This document shows, one piece after another, positions 5,833 through 32,263 of a stretch of 32,263 nucleotides of DNA. The DNA is taken from positions 1 to 32,263 of the IMG/VR virus record IMGVR_UViG_3300021197_000183. The stretch is one strand, 5' to 3'. The DNA is from a virus. Below the pieces are notes generated by a model that saw only the letters and a program-made list of their open reading frames with translations, was not told the origin of the DNA and did not search any database. How positions within the stretch are numbered: position 1 is the stretch's first letter; every line of letters begins with the position of its first letter. The position numbers were made by a program, and so were the translations under genes.

Positions 5833-7725
5833 ATGGATTTATACCAGCAATATATACACATTTCCCGTTATTCAAGATGGCGCGACGACCTCGGCCGCCG
5901 TGAAACCTGGGAAGAAACCGTCCAGCGCTACGTCGACTACTTCGACCAGAAGACCGACGGAACTATTACCGATATTCTTAACGGGAAAGTTAAACAGCAT
6001 ATAGCGGAACTTAAGGTTATGCCCTCTATGCGCGCATTAATGACGGCTGGCCCGGCGTTAGAGCGGGAAAATTTAGCCGGCTTTAATTGTTCATACCTGG
6101 CGGTAAATACTAAGCGTTCATTCGCCGAAGCGCTCTATATCTTAATGTGTGGTACCGGCGTCGGGTTCTCATGTGAACGCCAGGAGATAGCGCACTTACC
6201 CGCGATACCGGACGAACTCGGTAAAACCGATAGCGTTATTATGGTGGCGGATAGTAAGAAGGGCTGGTCTAAGGCCTACCATTCGCTGCTTAGTAACCTT
6301 TGGAACGGCGATATACCTAACGTCGACTACAGTAAGGTTCGCCCGGCTGGCGCCCGTTTAAAGGTGTTCGGCGGCCGCGCTTCCGGACCCGACCCACTAA
6401 AGCGCCTATTTATGTTTACTATCGAAATGTTCGATAAAGCCCGGGGGCGAAAACTTAACAGCCTAGAGGTACACGACCTAATGTGTATGATAGGCGAAAT
6501 AGTTGTCGTAGGAGGCGTACGTCGTAGCGCACTTATCAGCCTTAGCAATTTATCAGACCAAAGAATGCGAGACGCCAAGGGCGGCCAATGGTGGACCGAT
6601 AACCCCCAGCGTGGGCTAGCTAACAATAGCGTAGCGTATACCGAGAAGCCTTCGTCCGAGATATTTATGGAAGAATGGCTCGCCCTGGTAAAATCTAAGT
6701 CCGGGGAGCGCGGCATATTTAACCGCCAGGCCGCCGGAAAACAGGCCGCTAAATGGGGTAGACGCGACGAAGACCGTTCGTATGGTTGTAACCCTTGTTC
6801 GGAAATTATTCTCCGCGATAAGCAACTCTGTAACTTATCCGAAGTTATTATCCGGGAAGACGACGACCTCGATACACTTATGGGTAAGGTAGAAGTCGCT
6901 ACTATCCTGGGGACGCTGCAGGCGACGTTAACTAACTTCGGTTTTGTATCGGAAGCCTGGGCGCGAAATACCGCCGAGGAAGCGTTACTCGGGGTTAGCC
7001 TTACCGGTATAATGGATAATAAACTAATGTCGGGTGCCGAAGGTACCGAGAAGTTAACCAAGGCGTTAAACCAGCTTAGAGACCACGCAAGGGTTATTAA
7101 TGACGAGTGGGCCGAACGCCTGGGGATAAATGCTTCTACGTCGATTACGTGCGTTAAGCCGTCGGGTACGGTTAGCCAGCTATGTAATACTGCCAGCGGA
7201 ATACACGCCCGTCACAATCAAAACTATATACGTACGGTTAGAGTCGATAAGAAAGACCCGCTTTACGAGTTTATGAAAGCGCGCGGTTTCGTTACCGAAG
7301 ACGACGTTATGCGCCCAGATAGTACCGCCGTGGTAAGCTTCGCAATTAAGGCGCCGGAAAGTTCGGTTACACGGGACCAGGTTAACGCCATGGAAGCGCT
7401 AGAACTGTGGTTATTGTATCAGCGCGAATGGTGCGAACATAAACCGTCTGTAACTGTTACGGTCCGCGACGAGGAATGGTTAACCGTTGGTGCCTGGGTA
7501 TATGAGCATTTCGACGAGGTTTCGGGTATTAGTTTCTTACCCCATACCGACCATACCTACCAGCAAGCACCATACCAGGATATGACGCCGGCGGAGTTTG
7601 ACGAATGGCAGGAAAAACACCCTACGCCGTCGATAGACTGGAAGGAACTTTCGGATTTTGAAAAAACCGATAACACTACCGGGATGCAGACGCTAGCCTG
7701 TACCGGTAATAGCTGCGAGATTTAA
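5833..7725 (+). CDS. nrdJ: Class II (B12-dependent) ribonucleoside-triphosphate reductase
   Basis: A 630-residue monomeric-type class II ribonucleotide reductase, making dNTPs with adenosylcobalamin as radical source. Compared with the Lactobacillus leichmannii enzyme, the key residues are all visible: Cys86 (C119 equivalent, in NCSYLAV), Asn320-Pro-Cys322-Ser-Glu324 (N406, C408, E410) and Cys333 (C419, in QLCNLSE). The C-terminal redox pair is Cys623 and Cys628, five apart as in C731/C736. It is shorter than the about 740-residue Lactobacillus protein. No nrdB-like or activase gene follows, as expected for class II. The Shine-Dalgarno is weak (GAG nine bases upstream). The enzyme requires cobalamin from the host or environment, a real constraint on host range. 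Confidence 0.93.
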   Translation: MDLYQQYIHISRYSRWRDDLGRRETWEETVQRYVDYFDQKTDGTITDILNGKVKQHIAELKVMPSMRALMTAGPALERENLAGFNCSYLAVNTKRSFAEALYILMCGTGVGFSCERQEIAHLPAIPDELGKTDSVIMVADSKKGWSKAYHSLLSNLWNGDIPNVDYSKVRPAGARLKVFGGRASGPDPLKRLFMFTIEMFDKARGRKLNSLEVHDLMCMIGEIVVVGGVRRSALISLSNLSDQRMRDAKGGQWWTDNPQRGLANNSVAYTEKPSSEIFMEEWLALVKSKSGERGIFNRQAAGKQAAKWGRRDEDRSYGCNPCSEIILRDKQLCNLSEVIIREDDDLDTLMGKVEVATILGTLQATLTNFGFVSEAWARNTAEEALLGVSLTGIMDNKLMSGAEGTEKLTKALNQLRDHARVINDEWAERLGINASTSITCVKPSGTVSQLCNTASGIHARHNQNYIRTVRVDKKDPLYEFMKARGFVTEDDVMRPDSTAVVSFAIKAPESSVTRDQVNAMEALELWLLYQREWCEHKPSVTVTVRDEEWLTVGAWVYEHFDEVSGISFLPHTDHTYQQAPYQDMTPAEFDEWQEKHPTPSIDWKELSDFEKTDNTTGMQTLACTGNSCEI

Positions 7726-9931: not shown

Positions 9932-11344
9932 CTATCTGCCTGCTGTGCAATAATTCAGCATTACAGACATAGAATACCCGCCGCCAAGACCGCCGGTGTA
10001 ATCAGTTTGTAATTCCAAATCATTACCATTAATAACGATAATAGCTACAGCTTGAACGGGTAATGTATTAATAACGTCTATTGGCGTTAGGGTGGCTCCA
10101 TCATAATGCCAAGTTGTTTTCCTAAATGAACCCGGCGCACCACTTGAAGTAAAAGCTACTGTCATTTCAATGATTACAGATTGAAACGTCCCGGACACCT
10201 TGCTATATATGGTCTTGGTATCCGGTAAGGTGTTTACCTGACCGTCTCCAAACTGAATACCGAAATTATTACAGTCTGTTCTTTCTGGTATCTCTGTTAG
10301 GTTAGTGTGTTTAATACCTCCTAAACGATAACCAGACTTATCAACTACAGCAATCTGATTACCACTAGTTTTATCTTTTACCTCGGCATCGTTTATATTC
10401 GTTATATGCTGGAATTCAAATACTCCCGTAGTACGCCTTTTAGCACTGAACCCTTGCTCAAATAAAGGAGCCATAGTAGGGAATTTCATTTCAGGAACAG
10501 TACCATTCTGAATAGTCAAGGCCACATCGAACGAAGGCGAACCGCTGTCACTGGTGGCGTAAGATATAGACCAAAGGTCGGGGGTGGTACCAGAGTCCGA
10601 GCTTTCGGTAAAATTGAACGCGTAACGGTTGCCGAATGGGTCCGGGTTTACACCTGAACGCCTCCATAAAGAATCACAAGTCCCTCCAAGGGTCCCAGGC
10701 GACATTAAAAAACTGTGGCTATCGCGGCGGATATCCCACGGTAAATATGACTGGTGCGACTGCCCCGTGAAAGAGCCGTCCGATATACGGAAAATTGTCT
10801 CACCCGAACGCGCACCATCAATATTAACAATCGTATCGTTTACTGCGCCTATTTTTAACTGGCCCGCTATACATTTAGAAGCATCGAAGGGGGCGCCCGC
10901 TATGGTTAAAGTCACATTGTCGCCAGTCATAAAAGGGTCGTCCCATACATCGGGGGACGCGTCTAATATGTAGTTACCTTCGGGGATGAAGTACCTACCG
11001 TTAGACGCTGCTCTCGCTGCCGTAAAGGCTGCCGTATCATTGGCGACCCCGTCGCCTTTAGCGCCGAACTGTTTAACGCTTTTTAACGTGCCGAAAACAT
11101 TCTGTATGGCTTCTAAATATTGAGACGTAACGACGGTATCGGGCGTGCCATTAGGAACAATATTGGCTAAATTCAATAGCGCTTGTTGGAATCCGAACAT
11201 ATCGTTAAGTTCCGCCGCTATTCTAGGCGTACCCGTCAAGTCCCCCGGTGCCGCGTCATTTCTCGCGGAACCGTAGGTATAGTTAGCGTCGGGCGCTGCG
11301 GTTTGCCCGTTATACCCGGGCAGGGTTGATGGGTTGTTAGCCAT
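9932..11344 (-). CDS. Tail fibre/spike with pectate-lyase-type repeat start
   Basis: A 470-residue receptor-binding candidate. Residues 1-85 are a typical virion-attachment head (MANNPSTLPGYNGQ, then a helical stretch around 42-85). Residues 89-104 (SVKQFGAKGDGVANDT) match the entry motif of pectate-lyase-3-type beta-helix spikes. The rest is beta-rich and Gly/Ser/Thr-rich with no enzyme motif I can name. Base composition changes within the gene: 10321-10380 has 19 G+C of 60, whereas 18601-18660 in the tape measure has 37 of 60. This suggests a swapped host-range module on a conserved N terminus. GGAG about ten bases upstream supports the start. No fibre chaperone follows; the muramidase does. 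Confidence 0.8.
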   Translation of the reverse strand: MANNPSTLPGYNGQTAAPDANYTYGSARNDAAPGDLTGTPRIAAELNDMFGFQQALLNLANIVPNGTPDTVVTSQYLEAIQNVFGTLKSVKQFGAKGDGVANDTAAFTAARAASNGRYFIPEGNYILDASPDVWDDPFMTGDNVTLTIAGAPFDASKCIAGQLKIGAVNDTIVNIDGARSGETIFRISDGSFTGQSHQSYLPWDIRRDSHSFLMSPGTLGGTCDSLWRRSGVNPDPFGNRYAFNFTESSDSGTTPDLWSISYATSDSGSPSFDVALTIQNGTVPEMKFPTMAPLFEQGFSAKRRTTGVFEFQHITNINDAEVKDKTSGNQIAVVDKSGYRLGGIKHTNLTEIPERTDCNNFGIQFGDGQVNTLPDTKTIYSKVSGTFQSVIIEMTVAFTSSGAPGSFRKTTWHYDGATLTPIDVINTLPVQAVAIIVINGNDLELQTDYTGGLGGGYSMSVMLNYCTAGR

Positions 11345-16155: not shown

Positions 16156-17386
16156 TTTCGCGCCCCTTTGGTAATTCTAAAATCTCCGACCCGCTTAGAT
16201 TATTCGAGTTTATTAAAAAATCCAGTTGGTCGTCTACGCTTCCGTAGAGTTCGGCCGCTAGGTCTATGATAGTCCGGTTACGGTCCAGGATAATACTACG
16301 TTCCTGTTTTAGCGAGAAAGATATCTCGACCAGGAAGCCGGCTGTAAGTGCTACCGCCTCCTGCAGTTGTTGATATGCCCCGCCGGTGTCTACTTCGCCT
16401 AACGATTGGAAATTGTCGTCGCGCCAGGCTACTACGTCGGCCAGTTGGGTAAGTACCGCGTCGGCCGCTTCTAAGGCTTCGGTCTTAGTGGTAAATTGAT
16501 TGTTTACCACGGAAACCACGGAGCCGGTAACGTACGTAGAAGCGTAAAGGTCGTTAGTGTGGAATTTATTAGAGCTACTAGCGTCCAGGCTCGGCGTAGC
16601 GACCGCGTCGTCCCCGGAGGTAATAGAATCTGCCAGGTCCCTATATGCGTCTAGTCTAGCCGTTATATTTGCTAGGGACCTGGCGGGGGATTGTATTAAC
16701 GCGGCAGTTTGAAAAGCCAGTGTAAGTGGTTGCGCGATTAGGACGTCGATACCTTGGTTAATAGAATCTAGTATCGCGTTAAATTGCTGGGCCACCTCTC
16801 CCCTGGAAGGGATAAGTAAACTTTCCATAACGGACGCGGCGGAATCTAATAGCGCCTGGTAGTCGTTCTTAAACGTAGCGGCGTCGACCGCGCTATCCAG
16901 GCTAGTAACTTCCTCGAATTCGCTAGCCAGTGCCGCGTTATAATCATCGACTGCAGATAATACCGCGCTGCCTGGGTCTGTCTGGGCGGCTGGGTAAATT
17001 AGTCCTATGGTCTCCCATAAAGTAATCTCTAATACCGCCTGGTTAGCGCCCGTTTTCAAATCGTCGCGGCGTGTAATAGTGCCGAACGGTACGACGTCCA
17101 CAGTTCCGTATATAGGGTGTTCTAGCTTACCGGTACCGCGTTCCAATAAAGCGGCCTCGAATGCGTCCGCCTCCTGGTCGTAATCGTCGCCCCAGAAGAA
17201 AACCCTAAGCGGGTATTTTCTACCCGTGTGGCCTAGGTCCTGGACGAAAGTACCGTCGGCGTCTGGAAACTCGAAACCGGTAGTTTTCTTATCTATTTTT
17301 TTGCTTACGTTTTCGTACCCGAAGGTAAGACGTTCGCCAGAAGGCGACGTATAGGCCGCTTCGCGTATTCTGTCATTCCATGCCAT
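16139..17386 (-). CDS. DNA circulation protein, Mu gp43-like
   Basis: A 415-residue tail protein with the DNA_circ_N family N terminus: MAWNDRIREAAYTSPSGE and FEFPDADGTFVQDLGHTGR, then YPLRVFFWGDDYDQEADAF (residues 1-80). The remaining 300 residues are predicted mostly helical. Mu gp43 sits between tape measure and hub, as here, and is thought to belong to the baseplate-hub assembly; the family name comes from a phage P22-related observation. The start overlaps the tape-measure stop (TAATG), with GGGGG about nine bases upstream. Confidence 0.87.
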   Translation of the reverse strand: MAWNDRIREAAYTSPSGERLTFGYENVSKKIDKKTTGFEFPDADGTFVQDLGHTGRKYPLRVFFWGDDYDQEADAFEAALLERGTGKLEHPIYGTVDVVPFGTITRRDDLKTGANQAVLEITLWETIGLIYPAAQTDPGSAVLSAVDDYNAALASEFEEVTSLDSAVDAATFKNDYQALLDSAASVMESLLIPSRGEVAQQFNAILDSINQGIDVLIAQPLTLAFQTAALIQSPARSLANITARLDAYRDLADSITSGDDAVATPSLDASSSNKFHTNDLYASTYVTGSVVSVVNNQFTTKTEALEAADAVLTQLADVVAWRDDNFQSLGEVDTGGAYQQLQEAVALTAGFLVEISFSLKQERSIILDRNRTIIDLAAELYGSVDDQLDFLINSNNLSGSEILELPKGREIVYYV

Positions 17387-19317
17387 TAGAAGGCCCCCGA
17401 AGGTTGTAACGATAAACCAGGACCCATACTTCCGCTAGTCACTTCGGCGCGTCCTGATTCGTCGCGGATTGTTACTTCTGCGGTGCTGGTGGTCCGCTGT
17501 TCTTCAATACTCCGGGCTACTCGCTCCTGCGGGCTTACTACCTGGGGACCGGTACTTCCGCCGCCCTGGGCTTGTACGTCGTCGCCGAATCCGAAGAAGT
17601 CCGCCACGCCCCCGCCTATGTTAGAAATTGTATCCACAATGGCGGACGCGGCGCCTTTGACCCGGTCGACTACGCCCATTATCTTATCGATAGCGGAATC
17701 GAATATATTTACTACCCCGGTCCATAGGTCTTTAAAGAATGCCTTAATAGGTTCCCAGTGTTTAAATATTAGAGCGGCGGCGGCAATTAGCCAGCCTATC
17801 GGACCCATAAGGAAACCGATACCCGCGACGATAATATCCATAGCCTTACCGGATTCTAAAAACGCCTGGGTAAGTTCATCCCACCAAATTATAACGGCCA
17901 CTATAGCTGCTATCAACGCCATAATACCCAGTATGATAAGTACGATAGGGTTAGCTGCCATAACCAGGTTAACGACGGTTAGGATAAGCGCCAGGGTCTT
18001 AAGTATCGTAGCCAGGGCAAAGAATACCGCCAGGCCGATACCTATTCGTTTCATCCATTTAACGATACTACTAAAATTGTTTATCAAGTTAGCCAGGAAG
18101 CCGCCGACGTTGGTAGCGATTAATTTTTCGTTAACCCTTACCCATTCGGTAGTCTTTTCTATGGCGTCGGCTAGTGGTCCGCTACTCATGCTAAATATTG
18201 ATATTTTAACGCCCTCTACCGCTGATTTAAGCGAGTTTAACCGCCCTTGCAACGTATCACGCATTACGGACGCCATTTTCGAGGAAGCCCCGCTCGCGCC
18301 TTCTAATTCTTTCCGATACTCGCGTAACCTATCGGACCCGGAGGCCAGCAACACGTTAACGCCCGCGATAGGGATTTTACCGAAGATACCTTCCAATACT
18401 CCGGAGCGGTCGGCGGTACCGAGCCCGTCCAGGGAACCGTTAAGGTCGTGTAGGATATCCACGATATCGCGCATATCGCCGTTAGCGTCCTTAGTGGAAA
18501 CGCCCAGGCGCTTAAGTATTTTTGCCGCACCGGTGCCAGGCGCCGATAACGATAGGAACATATTTTTAAGAGTGGTACCGGCCTTACTGCCTTTGATACC
18601 AGAGTTAGCCAACTCGCCGGCCAATGCTGCGAACGTCTCTATAGACGCGCCGGCCGTGGTCGCTACTGGTGCGCCGTCTTTGATTGTTTCGAATAGTGCT
18701 TCTACGGTAGTGTTCGCGCTGGTGGTAGTCTTGGCGATAACGTCATTAACTCGGGCCAGGTTAATACCTAGCTTACTGGCGTCCTTAGTCATTAAACCGA
18801 AGGCGCCCAAAGAATCCGAAGCGACGTCGGTAGCTGTTGCTAAATCAACCTGGGCGGCGGTAGCTAAATCCACGACACCGGGCAAAGCGGCGACGGACGA
18901 CTCGGCATTAAACCCGGCCATAGCCAGGAAGTTAAGGGCGCTAGCTGCTTGGCTAGCTGTAAATTCTGTAGTAGAGCCGGTCTTCTTAGCGGCGGCTTCT
19001 AATTGCTCGAACGCATCTGTACCCCTGCGGATTTCTCCGGGGAATTTAGCGGCGGCATTAACTAGGGTTTGTTCAAATTCCGCGCCGGTCCCTATGACGT
19101 TAGCCATAGCGGCGGAGGATAGGGCGAGGGCGGCCGTAACCGCCAGGGCGCCACGTTTAACGCCCGAGGCAAATTTCCCTACACTACGGTTTAGTTTGTC
19201 GAAGCCTCGACCCATAGAGCGGGTTAATTTACCTACTCGGTTTTGCATCCGGGTAACTGGTGCCGTTACGCGGTCTACTGCCTTAAATACGGCTTCTACG
19301 CTAAAACGGCCTGCCAT
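17386..19317 (-). CDS. Tail tape measure protein
   Basis: A 643-residue tape measure protein of the PhageMin_Tail type. It has a basic N terminus (VTRMQNRVGKLTRSMGRGF, about 21-39) and a conserved-looking core (FEQTLVNAAAKF through DLATAAQVDLATATDVASDSLGAFG, about 81-174). Four to five hydrophobic segments cluster at about 425-480 and 494-518, which may insert in the host membrane during ejection. With the usual 0.15 nm per residue, the tail would be about 95-100 nm, a short contractile tail (inference). GGGG seven bases upstream supports the start. A very long antisense open frame lies opposite but has no gene-like features. Confidence 0.93.
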   Translation of the reverse strand: MAGRFSVEAVFKAVDRVTAPVTRMQNRVGKLTRSMGRGFDKLNRSVGKFASGVKRGALAVTAALALSSAAMANVIGTGAEFEQTLVNAAAKFPGEIRRGTDAFEQLEAAAKKTGSTTEFTASQAASALNFLAMAGFNAESSVAALPGVVDLATAAQVDLATATDVASDSLGAFGLMTKDASKLGINLARVNDVIAKTTTSANTTVEALFETIKDGAPVATTAGASIETFAALAGELANSGIKGSKAGTTLKNMFLSLSAPGTGAAKILKRLGVSTKDANGDMRDIVDILHDLNGSLDGLGTADRSGVLEGIFGKIPIAGVNVLLASGSDRLREYRKELEGASGASSKMASVMRDTLQGRLNSLKSAVEGVKISIFSMSSGPLADAIEKTTEWVRVNEKLIATNVGGFLANLINNFSSIVKWMKRIGIGLAVFFALATILKTLALILTVVNLVMAANPIVLIILGIMALIAAIVAVIIWWDELTQAFLESGKAMDIIVAGIGFLMGPIGWLIAAAALIFKHWEPIKAFFKDLWTGVVNIFDSAIDKIMGVVDRVKGAASAIVDTISNIGGGVADFFGFGDDVQAQGGGSTGPQVVSPQERVARSIEEQRTTSTAEVTIRDESGRAEVTSGSMGPGLSLQPSGAF

Positions 19318-19325
19318 AATTACCC

Positions 19326-19553
19326 CTATTTAGGTTTAGTATGCTCTTTTAGCTCCGCGCGTAACCCTTCATAAAAGAAGCGTATTTCGTGCGCCCGTAG
19401 CGTTCTGGCATCCGGTAGGCCTGGGTAATCGCGGCTAATCTGTAGTAACATTTCAGTATATACAGGCTGGAACGTGTGGCTATGCTTCCCGTCTTTATCT
19501 TTCGGGAGCCTTTCGTCCGCGCCGCGACGAACTACCAGGGTCCGGACTAACCC
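19326..19553 (-). CDS. Frameshift extension of tail assembly chaperone (75 aa)
   Basis: A coding stretch with no start of its own between the tail chaperone gene and the tape measure gene. Reading minus one from the slippery site adds 75 residues, from GLVRTLVVRRGADE to a TAG at 19328-19326, ending 8 bases before the tape-measure ATG. The C-terminal part (LPDARTLRAHEIRFFYEGL) resembles the second domain of tail chaperone fusions. With the upstream frame it gives a 209-residue fusion, in the role of lambda gpGT: holding the tape measure while the tube assembles. Confidence 0.8.
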   Translation of the reverse strand, partial: GLVRTLVVRRGADERLPKDKDGKHSHTFQPVYTEMLLQISRDYPGLPDARTLRAHEIRFFYEGLRAELKEHTKPK

Positions 19554-22656: not shown

Positions 22657-23036
22657 TATTCGTATAATTCCAGTAATAAAGTAACTAGGCCGAGCGCTCT
22701 ATCTGGGTTAGATTGCGCTACTTTAAACTTAAAGGCGTTACCGTTAATATCGTTAAATTCTATAACCCAGGGTTTAATACCAGCGTCGGCAATACCACGG
22801 GGTAGGGTTAGCCCTGCGGCTAAGATAGAAGATATGCGTAGCGCTACGGACGCTAAACGGCCGCTTACGGCTTGCCCGGTGTCTGGGTCGATAATCTGCG
22901 CGATATCGTCCGAGAAACCCATAAGAGGTCGAACGGTCCCCGAAGGGTCCGTTACAGTAATCGGCCAGCCGAAACCCGTAGCCCCATCTTCTAAGATAAG
23001 GCCGAGGTCGGATTCCGCTAACTGGCGAATACTCAT
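22656..23036 (-). CDS. Putative head-tail adaptor / head completion protein
   Basis: A 126-residue protein starting MSIRQLAESDLGLILEDGA, with GFGWPITVTDPSG (about 21-33) and FKFKVAQSNPDRALGLV near the C terminus. I recognise this as a recurrent small protein of phage head-tail junctions, found between capsid and sheath genes. It probably seals the portal vertex or docks the tail; the exact function is inferred from position. AAGG about eight bases before the ATG; it starts three bases after the preceding stop. Confidence 0.65.
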   Translation of the reverse strand: MSIRQLAESDLGLILEDGATGFGWPITVTDPSGTVRPLMGFSDDIAQIIDPDTGQAVSGRLASVALRISSILAAGLTLPRGIADAGIKPWVIEFNDINGNAFKFKVAQSNPDRALGLVTLLLELYE

Positions 23037-29338: not shown

Positions 29339-31324
29339 TTAATCGCTATAGTAAAGTTTCTCGTTTTCTAGGTAGTCCCAAAACGTCGGCCAGTCTACGG
29401 TATCTAACTCGAAATGCTGTATACATATAGCCCAGGCTAGTATCTCTACCGCCGCGTGACCATAACAGAGTAAATCCCACAATTCATTACGCGCGTTACC
29501 TGGGCGGTACCAGAAGTAAGAGACGTTACCCTTTTCGTCTTTACGTTCGCGCCTGGTCTCGACGGTAAGTTCCTTAAGCTGTTTATCCGAAATATCTATC
29601 GGGGCGTTAAAGTGGTATTTCTTTTGCTCGCCGGCGCCTTCTTCCCATTCTCGGCGAAGTACGGGCGCTAGACGGTCCTTATAGTGGTCTACCAAGATAC
29701 GATACCCGACCGTACCGGCCTGGGTGGTGAACTCCGCGAATTCCTTGATAGTCTGGTTTTTTGCTGGGCGGTCTCGGCCCAGGATAGGGTAAACACCCGA
29801 AGCATAGTCGGAACAGAAAGTCGTAACCGTATCGTTAGCGTAGCCGGCGTCGACCAGGGTAATAGCGACGCGGTACTTTTTGCCGTCGTCGGCCGTATAC
29901 TCTTTTTCTTCGATAAGTTCGCGTAGGCGACCCCATACCGGGCTAGTTAATTCGCTACAGTCGTCTTCGTTGCCTTCCACTTCAAAACGCCAGTAGTCGA
30001 TAACGTAAGGCTTAGAATCTCGGCACCAGCCCATAACACTAACGGCTAAATTCTGTTTATGGACGTCGACCTTACACGTAAGGAACAGAATAGCCGAGCC
30101 GGAAAACTTCTTCGCGTATTCGTTAGGAATCGTACCCAGGCGGTAAGCTGCTCTACGGTGCGCCGATACGCTTGTAAACCGAATTTTAGAGCCCATAATC
30201 TCGAATGGTTCGGCCAAGATATTATTATAAAATACCTGGTACTTACCTATATCGCGGACCTTTTTTTCTATAGGGTCAAAGCCACGGAGATAGGCGCTAA
30301 CGCATTTATACCAGGGCTGCATACCGATAGGCGAGTATAGCGCCGGCAAGTGGTACGAGCGGATACCAGGCTCTACAGGTCTGGCCGTAGGCGTCCATAT
30401 CGCGCCGTGGTCTTCGGAGAATAACCGCTCTTTGTCGTGTTCATAGTGGGCGGTTCCGCAATTTCTACAGCAATACCGGACAGATTCCAGGACCAGGACA
30501 CCGTTATCTAGTTCCCACTGGAAACCCCCTATAACGCCGGTTTTTTTATCAACCGACGACCAGCGTAGTTCCTGGGGAAAGCCGCACGATTTACAAAGTA
30601 CGTTATATTTTCGCTGGTCTCCGCGTAAATACGCCTGCTCTATTTTCGAAGCGCCTTTTACCAATGGCGTAGACCCTCGGAAAATTTTACGACGCTCCCA
30701 GTAGCCCGAACAGCGGTCGTCGCTTAGTGCGTCCGGGTCGCCGTCCTTACCTACCGTGTCGGGCCAGGCGTCTATCTCGTCTTTCAACATCACACAAATA
30801 GAATACGAGCGCATTTTATCGGCATTCTTCGCGCCGAACGGTACCAGGTAGCCGCCGCCTTCAAATTGTAAATGATTAGCAGTTTTACCGGTTTTACGGC
30901 TGTTACCTTCGTCGCTTGAGCGGATAATATGCCCTAGGTCGGAGTGGTTAAGCATGGGTAAAAAGTTGTTTTCGATACGTGCGGCCGCGAGTTCTTTATC
31001 GGCGGTTAGATACATTATCGGGAGCGTTTTAACGTGGCCCATAAAATACAGGGCGCCGGATTCCAGTACCGTAGAGTAGGTAATCTGTACGCCTTTCTTA
31101 AGGTTTACTTCCCGGACCGGGCTATCAATATCGAAACAGTCGACTATCTCACGCATAAACGGGTTAACGTCGTAGCGGATAAATCCAGGGATAGACGTAA
31201 CGGATTCTGGTAGGTACCGGTTTTCTTCGTTGTACTGGCTGGGCGTAACGTGGATTACTTCGTCCGTTAGCCCGTCGACCTCGTCGACCACCCAGTCGGC
31301 GCCGATATTATCAATTTTACGCAT
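29339..31324 (-). CDS. Terminase large subunit (GpA family)
   Basis: A 661-residue packaging motor and nuclease of the lambda GpA type. The ATPase part carries a Walker A-like region KKGVQITYST (about 77-84) and Walker B VMLKDEIDAW (178-187). A zinc-binding pair of CxxC motifs (Cys244/247 and Cys286/289) lies in the linker region. The C-terminal nuclease part contains KVDVHKQNL and ITLVDAGYAND with conserved acidic residues. It drives DNA into the prohead and makes the end cut. GAGGG about eight bases before the ATG lies inside the small-subunit gene, and the two genes overlap by eight bases. Confidence 0.92.
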   Translation of the reverse strand: MRKIDNIGADWVVDEVDGLTDEVIHVTPSQYNEENRYLPESVTSIPGFIRYDVNPFMREIVDCFDIDSPVREVNLKKGVQITYSTVLESGALYFMGHVKTLPIMYLTADKELAAARIENNFLPMLNHSDLGHIIRSSDEGNSRKTGKTANHLQFEGGGYLVPFGAKNADKMRSYSICVMLKDEIDAWPDTVGKDGDPDALSDDRCSGYWERRKIFRGSTPLVKGASKIEQAYLRGDQRKYNVLCKSCGFPQELRWSSVDKKTGVIGGFQWELDNGVLVLESVRYCCRNCGTAHYEHDKERLFSEDHGAIWTPTARPVEPGIRSYHLPALYSPIGMQPWYKCVSAYLRGFDPIEKKVRDIGKYQVFYNNILAEPFEIMGSKIRFTSVSAHRRAAYRLGTIPNEYAKKFSGSAILFLTCKVDVHKQNLAVSVMGWCRDSKPYVIDYWRFEVEGNEDDCSELTSPVWGRLRELIEEKEYTADDGKKYRVAITLVDAGYANDTVTTFCSDYASGVYPILGRDRPAKNQTIKEFAEFTTQAGTVGYRILVDHYKDRLAPVLRREWEEGAGEQKKYHFNAPIDISDKQLKELTVETRRERKDEKGNVSYFWYRPGNARNELWDLLCYGHAAVEILAWAICIQHFELDTVDWPTFWDYLENEKLYYSD

Positions 31325-32201
31325 TTTTTAACGCCCTCGCTACTTTGGCCTTAACGGGTCGTATAAAACTGGTTAGCTGGTCGGCGACGAATTTTTCGAT
31401 ATCTTCGAGCGGTCTTTCGGCCGAGTGCATGGCAGTAGCGCGCCTAGCGATTGTCTTAGCGCCGTCCGTAAGTAATTTAATATGGCAGGCGTCTATAGGT
31501 TCGATAATCCCTGTACGGACTAGTTTACGGCTAACGAGTTCGCCTTCGGTGGTAGCGTTTTTAAGCCGCTTTTCGTTAATGGCTTCGATTTTTTGCGTAG
31601 CGCTTAGCCAGTCGACGAAGCGGGTATCTGTACCGAATTTTTCGATAAGTTCGAGGAGCGTCATATCTGCGAATGCCTGTATATCTTCTGGAATTTCGAA
31701 TATTTCGTCTTCCTGGTCTACCTGGCGTTTCTTCGCCGCTTTAACTGCAGCGGTACCGCGTACGTGTGGTTTCAACTTCTCGACGGCCGCTTCGATTTCC
31801 CCTTCCTGGATAACCACGGGGGCAGGATTCTTTAAGCCTCCGGGCTTCGTCGGGTCTCTGCCTTCCGGTATCAAGCCGTTAGCGCGCATCGTCGTAATTA
31901 TACTGTGGGCTCGGTTGTACCCTATTTTAAAATGCCGCTGCAGCCCCGAAACCGAATAACGGTCGGCGGTCCTACAGTGTTCGACGGCTTCTTCGTAGAT
32001 AGCGTCGAGCCCAGAAGCGGGCGGCGGGGTCTGGTCCCGGAGTTTTATTTCCAGGTACGAAACGGCGGAAGGGTGCGCGGCGTCTATACGCTTGCCCTCT
32101 ACGGCGTCTTTAAGAATGTTATTACAGGCCTTCGTCACTGCTGCAGCGCTTACGCCAGCCTGGCGGGCAAATTCGGCCCGGCTTACTAATTTTTTAACCA
32201 T
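31317..32201 (-). CDS. Putative terminase small subunit with FtsK-gamma-like domain
   Basis: A 294-residue DNA-binding protein directly before the large terminase. Residues 1-55 resemble the helix-turn-helix of lambda Nu1-type small terminases (SRAEFARQAGVSAAAVTKA). Residues 66-112 are strikingly like the gamma domain of the FtsK DNA translocase: IYEEAVEHC, then VSGLQRHFKIGYNRA and IITTMRANGLIPE. In FtsK this winged helix reads the KOPS octamer. Residues 165-294 are charged and helical, fitting oligomerisation and large-subunit contact. No Shine-Dalgarno lies at normal distance from the ATG (GAGGAGG is 19 bases upstream), and the frame is open, without a usual start codon, to the window edge. 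Role in recognising the packaging site is inference. Confidence 0.75.
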   Translation of the reverse strand: MVKKLVSRAEFARQAGVSAAAVTKACNNILKDAVEGKRIDAAHPSAVSYLEIKLRDQTPPPASGLDAIYEEAVEHCRTADRYSVSGLQRHFKIGYNRAHSIITTMRANGLIPEGRDPTKPGGLKNPAPVVIQEGEIEAAVEKLKPHVRGTAAVKAAKKRQVDQEDEIFEIPEDIQAFADMTLLELIEKFGTDTRFVDWLSATQKIEAINEKRLKNATTEGELVSRKLVRTGIIEPIDACHIKLLTDGAKTIARRATAMHSAERPLEDIEKFVADQLTSFIRPVKAKVARALKNA

Positions 32202-32207
32202 GGAAGG

Positions 32208-32236
32208 AGTATAGCGGAATCCCTCCTCGAAGTTAA
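32208..32236 (-). promoter_or_regulatory. Candidate late promoter
   Basis: On the minus strand TTAACT (32236-32231) and TATACT (32213-32208) are separated by 17 bases, four of six and five of six matches to the sigma-70 consensus. The TATACT ends six bases before the terminase ATG, so transcription would begin at or next to the start codon, giving a leaderless mRNA. It could equally be chance. Confidence 0.35.
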
Positions 32237-32263
32237 GAGCGGTTAAACAATCAGAATTTGTGC

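Follow-up and report, generated by a model that had tools for sequence, protein, structure and literature searches.

An FtsK gamma domain in the small terminase of a cos-type phage and a candidate site for it in the cos leader

The small terminase subunit (TerS) predicted from a viral metagenomic genome contains a winged helix of the FtsK gamma family, set between an N-terminal helix–turn–helix (HTH) and a C-terminal domain. The genome (IMG/VR virus record IMGVR_UViG_3300021197_000183) was analysed as one stretch of 32 263 nucleotides, here called the window, in which terS lies at 31317..32201 (− strand) and encodes 294 amino acids. The explanation that we consider best, and to which we give somewhat better than an even chance, is that TerS is a two-reader protein, whose HTH would recognise repeats and whose gamma domain would recognise a lineage-specific element of the cos leader.

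A small terminase with an FtsK gamma winged helix

The gamma domain spans residues 62–114 (31860..32018, − strand) and is matched in both sequence and fold. Pfam FtsK_gamma (PF09397) matches residues 65–111 with E=3e-14 and a score of 52.9 bits, above the curated cut-off of 30.6 bits, and the best PDB sequence match of the protein is 2j5p, the gamma domain of E. coli FtsK (E=3e-8). A single-chain AF2 model of TerS, built on an alignment of 47 sequences, has a mean pLDDT of 81 and approximately 88 across residues 71–110; with a pTM of 0.34, the arrangement of the domains is not predicted. FtsK gamma structures occupy the top rows of the fold search with this model, the closest being the KOPS-bound gamma of P. 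aeruginosa (2ve9_A; Z 8.8, 1.8 Å over 55 residues, 36% identity). As Pfam, the PDB and the modelled fold all return gamma, the domain that the initial annotation had seen in a putative small terminase is real, and chance is ruled out. Along its full length TerS matches PHROG 13700, named ‘FtsK/SpoIIIE-like protein’ (E=3.7e-106), and a Pfam search of the 294 residues found no match to an ATPase (the FtsK/SpoIIIE motor) or to Terminase_2. Matches to FtsK gamma also occur within genes annotated as RdgC (recombination-associated protein) in OM654378, MZ285879, Vibrio phages D53 and others, which suggests RdgC–gamma fusions in other phages.

The HTH (residues 1–57; 32031..32201, − strand) is of the AGVSAAAVTKAC type and has a Nu1/BldC/Xis-like fold in the model. 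Its earlier description as Nu1-like holds at the level of the fold and no further: the model matches gpNu1 (1j9i; Z 5.0, 3.3 Å over 59 residues) and BldC (6ama; Z 5.7), with BldC and Xis scoring slightly above gpNu1, phrog_57 (terminase small subunit) matches residues 3–41 at E=0.0013, and no dedicated small-terminase model in Pfam or NCBIfam matched the protein. The C-terminal domain (residues 168–292; 31326..31700, − strand) is helical and conserved, and would act in oligomerisation or in docking of the large terminase (TerL). It is common to relatives that have the HTH and lack gamma, including PY6, Vibrio phages and metagenomic loci, and the copy that shares this domain in Aeromonas phage AeroV_348 is annotated as a terminase small subunit.

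We take the product to be TerS because its gene stands directly before that of a gpA-type TerL and near cos, and because it shares its C-terminal domain with the AeroV_348 protein. The terL gene (29339..31324, − strand) shares 8 nt with the end of terS, its product matches GpA_ATPase and GpA_nuclease in Pfam, and genes for portal, capsid E and baseplate J follow downstream. On these sequence grounds the 294-residue protein is identified as the small terminase of a cos-type contractile-tailed phage; the proposal that a small terminase here combines two DNA-binding modules, of which one belongs to the FtsK gamma family, agrees with the HTH, the gamma domain and the adjoining gpA-type TerL. The nearest isolated relative of the window is Shewanella phage SppYZU01, whose laboratory host is Shewanella baltica. 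One further gamma-bearing relative (L117) came from a scan of bacterial genomes; its contig is binned as Nitrospinota. When the presence of gamma is mapped on the C-terminal-domain tree, approximately 10 changes are required, four of them forced by well-supported branches, so that gamma appears as an optional insert between the HTH and the C-terminus.

Two further reading frames of the window may be recorded. A 616-aa open frame (17483-19333, + strand) lies opposite a 643-aa ORF (17386-19317, − strand) and is probably a by-product of codon usage, and a 630-aa protein (5833-7725, + strand) matches class II ribonucleotide reductase weakly and in part.

The cos site and the leader of terS

The sequences of relatives from independent metagenomes open with GTTTTGATTCNNNCG CGCN..CCTCGCACAA, at approximately 88 bp upstream of terS, and a contig end lies within approximately 4 nt of the cos core in 18 of the 24 IMG/VR contigs that hold it. 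In each of five complete contigs, bases 1–15 and the final 15 bases are the same 15-mer, which differs from genome to genome although its two copies in any one genome agree. The simplest explanation would be a cos with 15-nt 5′ overhangs that were filled in when the libraries were made; formally, the ends could instead be a 15-bp terminal repeat. Because the window stops approximately 26 bp short of the cut, its own cos is placed from the relatives; GCACAA of the window (32258..32263, − strand) corresponds to the inner edge of their conserved left-end core. The packaging site, one of two purposes for which the reader had been supposed to serve, is supported as the likely target of TerS.

Just upstream of the cut, a conserved AAAAGGTACTG element accompanies a GC-rich variable dyad (L002 2243-2300, and the right ends of L018 and L026). 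Both are also found at the right end of PY6 (L003), a phage without gamma, and the position of the element corresponds to that of lambda cosQ. The contig ends of L009 and L011, which come from the same metagenome, consist of TerL pieces fused to the cos core and are an assembly artefact. The cos core itself was considered as the site of gamma and rejected, being kept in relatives that lack the domain.

In the relatives, two direct repeats approximately 10–12 bp apart come first after cos; the 17-bp segment, the −10-like hexamer and the terS start codon follow in that order. In the window, where all of these lie on the − strand, the first repeat is TTTAACC (32241..32247), a candidate R-like site for the HTH, and the second is CTTAACT (32231..32237), approximately 10 bp from the first and at the expected place of a −35 element. 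The 17-bp segment TCGAGGAGGGATTCCGC (32214..32230), the candidate gamma site, lies between this last repeat and TATACT (32208..32213), the −10-like hexamer 6 nt before the terS ATG. A −10-like hexamer stands 6–10 nt before the terS start codon in nearly all relatives, with or without gamma, and from such proximity a leaderless terS mRNA is predicted across the family.

The repeats covary with the HTH. All 14 HTHs with NPS[TS] are accompanied by TTTGC repeats, with or without gamma, and no TTTGC repeats were found with an AA-type HTH. The partial Mantel correlation between HTH and repeats is r=0.56 (p=0.0002) and stays at 0.47–0.49 after similar gammas are collapsed, while the repeats retain some correlation with gamma (r=0.31). 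It is thus well supported by covariation that the N-terminal HTH would read two short direct repeats beside the cut, these serving as the R sites do in lambda cosB. In relatives without gamma, as in L102, L104-L107 and L111, the leader often has three spaced repeats, not two and a 17-bp segment.

The target of the gamma domain

The recognition helix of gamma comprises residues 95–107 (31881..31919, − strand), in which N96, S100, T103 and R106 correspond to N1296, R1300, E1303 and E1306 of FtsK, the FtsK numbering having been checked against MG1655. Joint substitution of R1300, E1303 and E1306 renders E. coli FtsK KOPS-blind (PMC2680272). The initial annotation had assigned the KOPS-reading residues to QRHFKIGYNRA (residues 88–98); N96 is indeed kept, but the other three are replaced by S, T and R, and the assignment is not supported. 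A serine at the R1300 position also occurs in a Rhizobium FtsK, seen in the bacterial genome scan, so that this change alone is not disqualifying. Among 34 relatives, positions 96, 100, 103 and 106 have entropies of 2.4–3.0 bits and R97 and A98 are almost fixed; hypervariable base-reading positions beside fixed structural ones are unlike a non-specific binder.

The 17-bp segment varies with gamma and not with the HTH. With HTH and C-terminus held constant, the partial Mantel correlation of gamma with the segment is r=0.41 (p=0.0002), whereas that of the HTH, with the other domains held constant, is r=−0.06. The link between gamma and segment is r=0.31 when synonymous divergence is added as a control and weakens to r=0.19–0.22 (p=0.003–0.02) after similar gammas are collapsed. 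The recognition helix alone was discarded as a predictor of the segment, its association being non-significant once near-copies were collapsed, and L063 and L064 have the same segment with gammas that differ at positions 95–96.

The closest comparison is between the window and L011, whose leaders, as far as the −35, and HTH coding sequences are 97% identical, against 92% for the C-terminal coding sequence and 95% for TerL; in the segment, which in L011 is TCCGGAGCGTACCGCGC, they agree at 8 of 17 positions, and gamma with its flanks is 52–62% identical. Reader and element would thus have changed together, with the HTH coding sequence between them unchanged, although mosaic assembly is possible for this pair since the L011 contig end is chimeric. 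By comparison, L009 keeps the segment of the window entirely and a gamma 95% identical, at a synonymous distance like that of L011 (23% versus 21%). Exact searches of IMG/VR with the window and L011 segments returned only L009 and L011 themselves, and so no second such pair. These observations give moderate support to the view that gamma reads the adjacent 17-bp segment, with a specificity that would have diverged from KOPS and would depend on the lineage; the segment may in part be a fast-drifting promoter spacer.

It is conceivable, if rather unlikely, that gamma adds affinity that is mostly non-specific or weakly G-preferring, that the HTH alone sets specificity, and that the segment is a neutral spacer of the promoter. 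Relatives that lack gamma evidently persist and have kept this cos core and these repeats, the presence of the domain requires some 10 changes on the C-terminal tree, and its link to the segment is modest once collapsed, all of which would suit a dispensable contribution to binding. Against this stand the joint change of gamma and segment between the window and L011 at low synonymous divergence, where L009 has changed neither, the fact that the segment follows gamma and not the HTH despite the HTH coding sequence being nearer, and the contrast of hypervariable base-reading with fixed structural positions.

A second alternative, which we regard as improbable, is that gamma reads host-type KOPS, either orienting packaging along polarised sequences or selecting host DNA for transduction, as has been suggested for phages Sam46 and Sam112. 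The exact KOPS GGGNAGGG, missed by an earlier manual read, is present twice in the window (11318-11325 and 22800-22807, both + strand), fewer than the 4.5 expected by chance, and SppYZU01, a complete relative, has four, both strands counted, against 7.4 expected. With KOPS no commoner than chance in either genome, it was rejected as a genome-wide guide, and orientation along polarised sequences, the other purpose supposed for the reader, is not supported. The leaders tell in part otherwise: of the 32 clades with gamma, three have exact KOPS in the leader, always on the sense strand of terS, against 0.12 expected (p<0.001; one of the three, L139, was found after the idea was formed); none of 16 clades without gamma has it, and the segment of the window includes a near-match, GAGGAGGG (32221-32228, − strand). 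However, KOPS is absent from the other 29 leader clades, R1300, E1303 and E1306 are not kept in TerS, and the FtsK residue set is not retained even in the gammas whose leaders have exact KOPS. We read the leader matches as a probable trace of shared ancestry: the domain would descend from a reader of G-rich sequence and have diverged in specificity afterwards. With the KOPS residues replaced and KOPS not enriched, the evidence agrees best with the proviso of a target other than KOPS.

About as improbable is that gamma acts mainly as an autorepressor on a G-rich dyad around the terS −10, with no role in packaging. An inverted repeat flanking the −10 (RGGRG..CYCCY, e.g. TCAGGGAG with CTCCCTGA) occurs in gamma-bearing leaders such as those of L088, L064, L061 and L082. 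The segment lies inside the promoter, and in gamma-bearing leaders its pairing with the stretch after the −10 exceeds that of re-paired controls (mean arm 4.04 versus 3.41, p=0.001), an excess over controls that was not seen in leaders without gamma. Yet the arms are only 2–4 nt in most gamma-bearing leaders, and the same bases lie within approximately 60 bp of the cut; as they belong both to the promoter and to the surroundings of the cut, roles in packaging and in repression are inseparable by sequence. Contact of gamma with host XerD rather than DNA, through the QR-GN residues named for this in FtsK gamma (PMC5357621), has very little probability: Q88, R89, G94 and N96 are present in the window TerS, but these residues are not family-wide (N96 in 13 and R89 in 20 of 34 relatives), and we found nothing to call for a Xer step in a phage of the cos type.

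The two-reader explanation would work as follows. The HTH would bind the direct repeats next to the cut and gamma the 17-bp segment, and the two modules would give TerS a recognition site both longer and polar, by which TerL would be fixed at cos and packaging made specific in the presence of co-infecting relatives. TerS once bound might also shut off its own gene, a weaker proposal, since the repeat and the segment overlie the −35 and −10 of the terS promoter. More tentatively, and with less than even confidence, we extend this to the lineage of cos phages as a whole: packaging specificity would be bipartite and modular, with pairs of reader and site evolving separately, gamma and its site swappable, and the element also controlling the leaderless terS promoter. 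If true, an exchange of the gamma module and its site as one unit could give a relative a new packaging identity.

Comparison with known systems

The recognition of DNA by small terminases is still debated (PMC9611059). The family described here offers approximately 50 natural TerS proteins with a second, well-understood reader, relatives without that reader, a mapped cut site, a candidate element and a close co-differing pair, which opens to direct test how a terminase recognises sequence and how gamma has been reprogrammed away from KOPS. The literature searched did not describe gamma in any gpA/cos-type TerS, the arrangement with two readers, or the candidate site.

A fusion of FtsK_gamma to TerS has been described in Bacillus phages Sam46 and Sam112 (PMC8190038), where, as in the window TerS, gamma is on the N-terminal side, and where KOPS-like sites were also proposed. 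In those phages gamma is N-terminal to Terminase_2, packaging is SPP1-like headful (pac) in a Gram-positive host, and pac lies approximately 4.5 kb from terS; in the window TerS, by contrast, gamma stands between an HTH and a different C-terminal domain, with a gpA-type TerL and with cos directly upstream of terS. PHROG 13700 comprises the same full-length family, filed under moron/host takeover with a name taken from gamma only; its members without gamma match via the C-terminal domain. The genomic context points to a small terminase. The gamma domains of FtsK and SpoIIIE (PDB 2j5p, 2ve9) belong to the same sequence family and fold as that of TerS, which differs in lacking the motor domain, in the replacement of R1300, E1303 and E1306, and in being set inside another protein. 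Gamma is likewise a fast-varying part of a phage protein in the FtsK-like proteins of cluster J mycobacteriophages (PMC3706429), but these retain the motor and are not terminases.

In lambda, the recognition helix of TerS against the R sites sets specificity (PMC4669245), and the covariation of HTH and repeats described above agrees with this. The gpNu1/cosB system (PMC4669245) has an N-terminal winged HTH, which that of the window TerS resembles at the level of the fold, and shares with the window and its relatives a gpA-type TerL, cohesive ends and repeats on the side of the cut. Lambda has no gamma, 12-nt ends, and three R sites with IHF, whereas phages of the window type have 15 nt common to their ends, two close repeats (period 10–11) and the extra reader. 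The fusion of gamma to a TerS is thus already published, while its architecture here, its cos context and its candidate site appear to be new.
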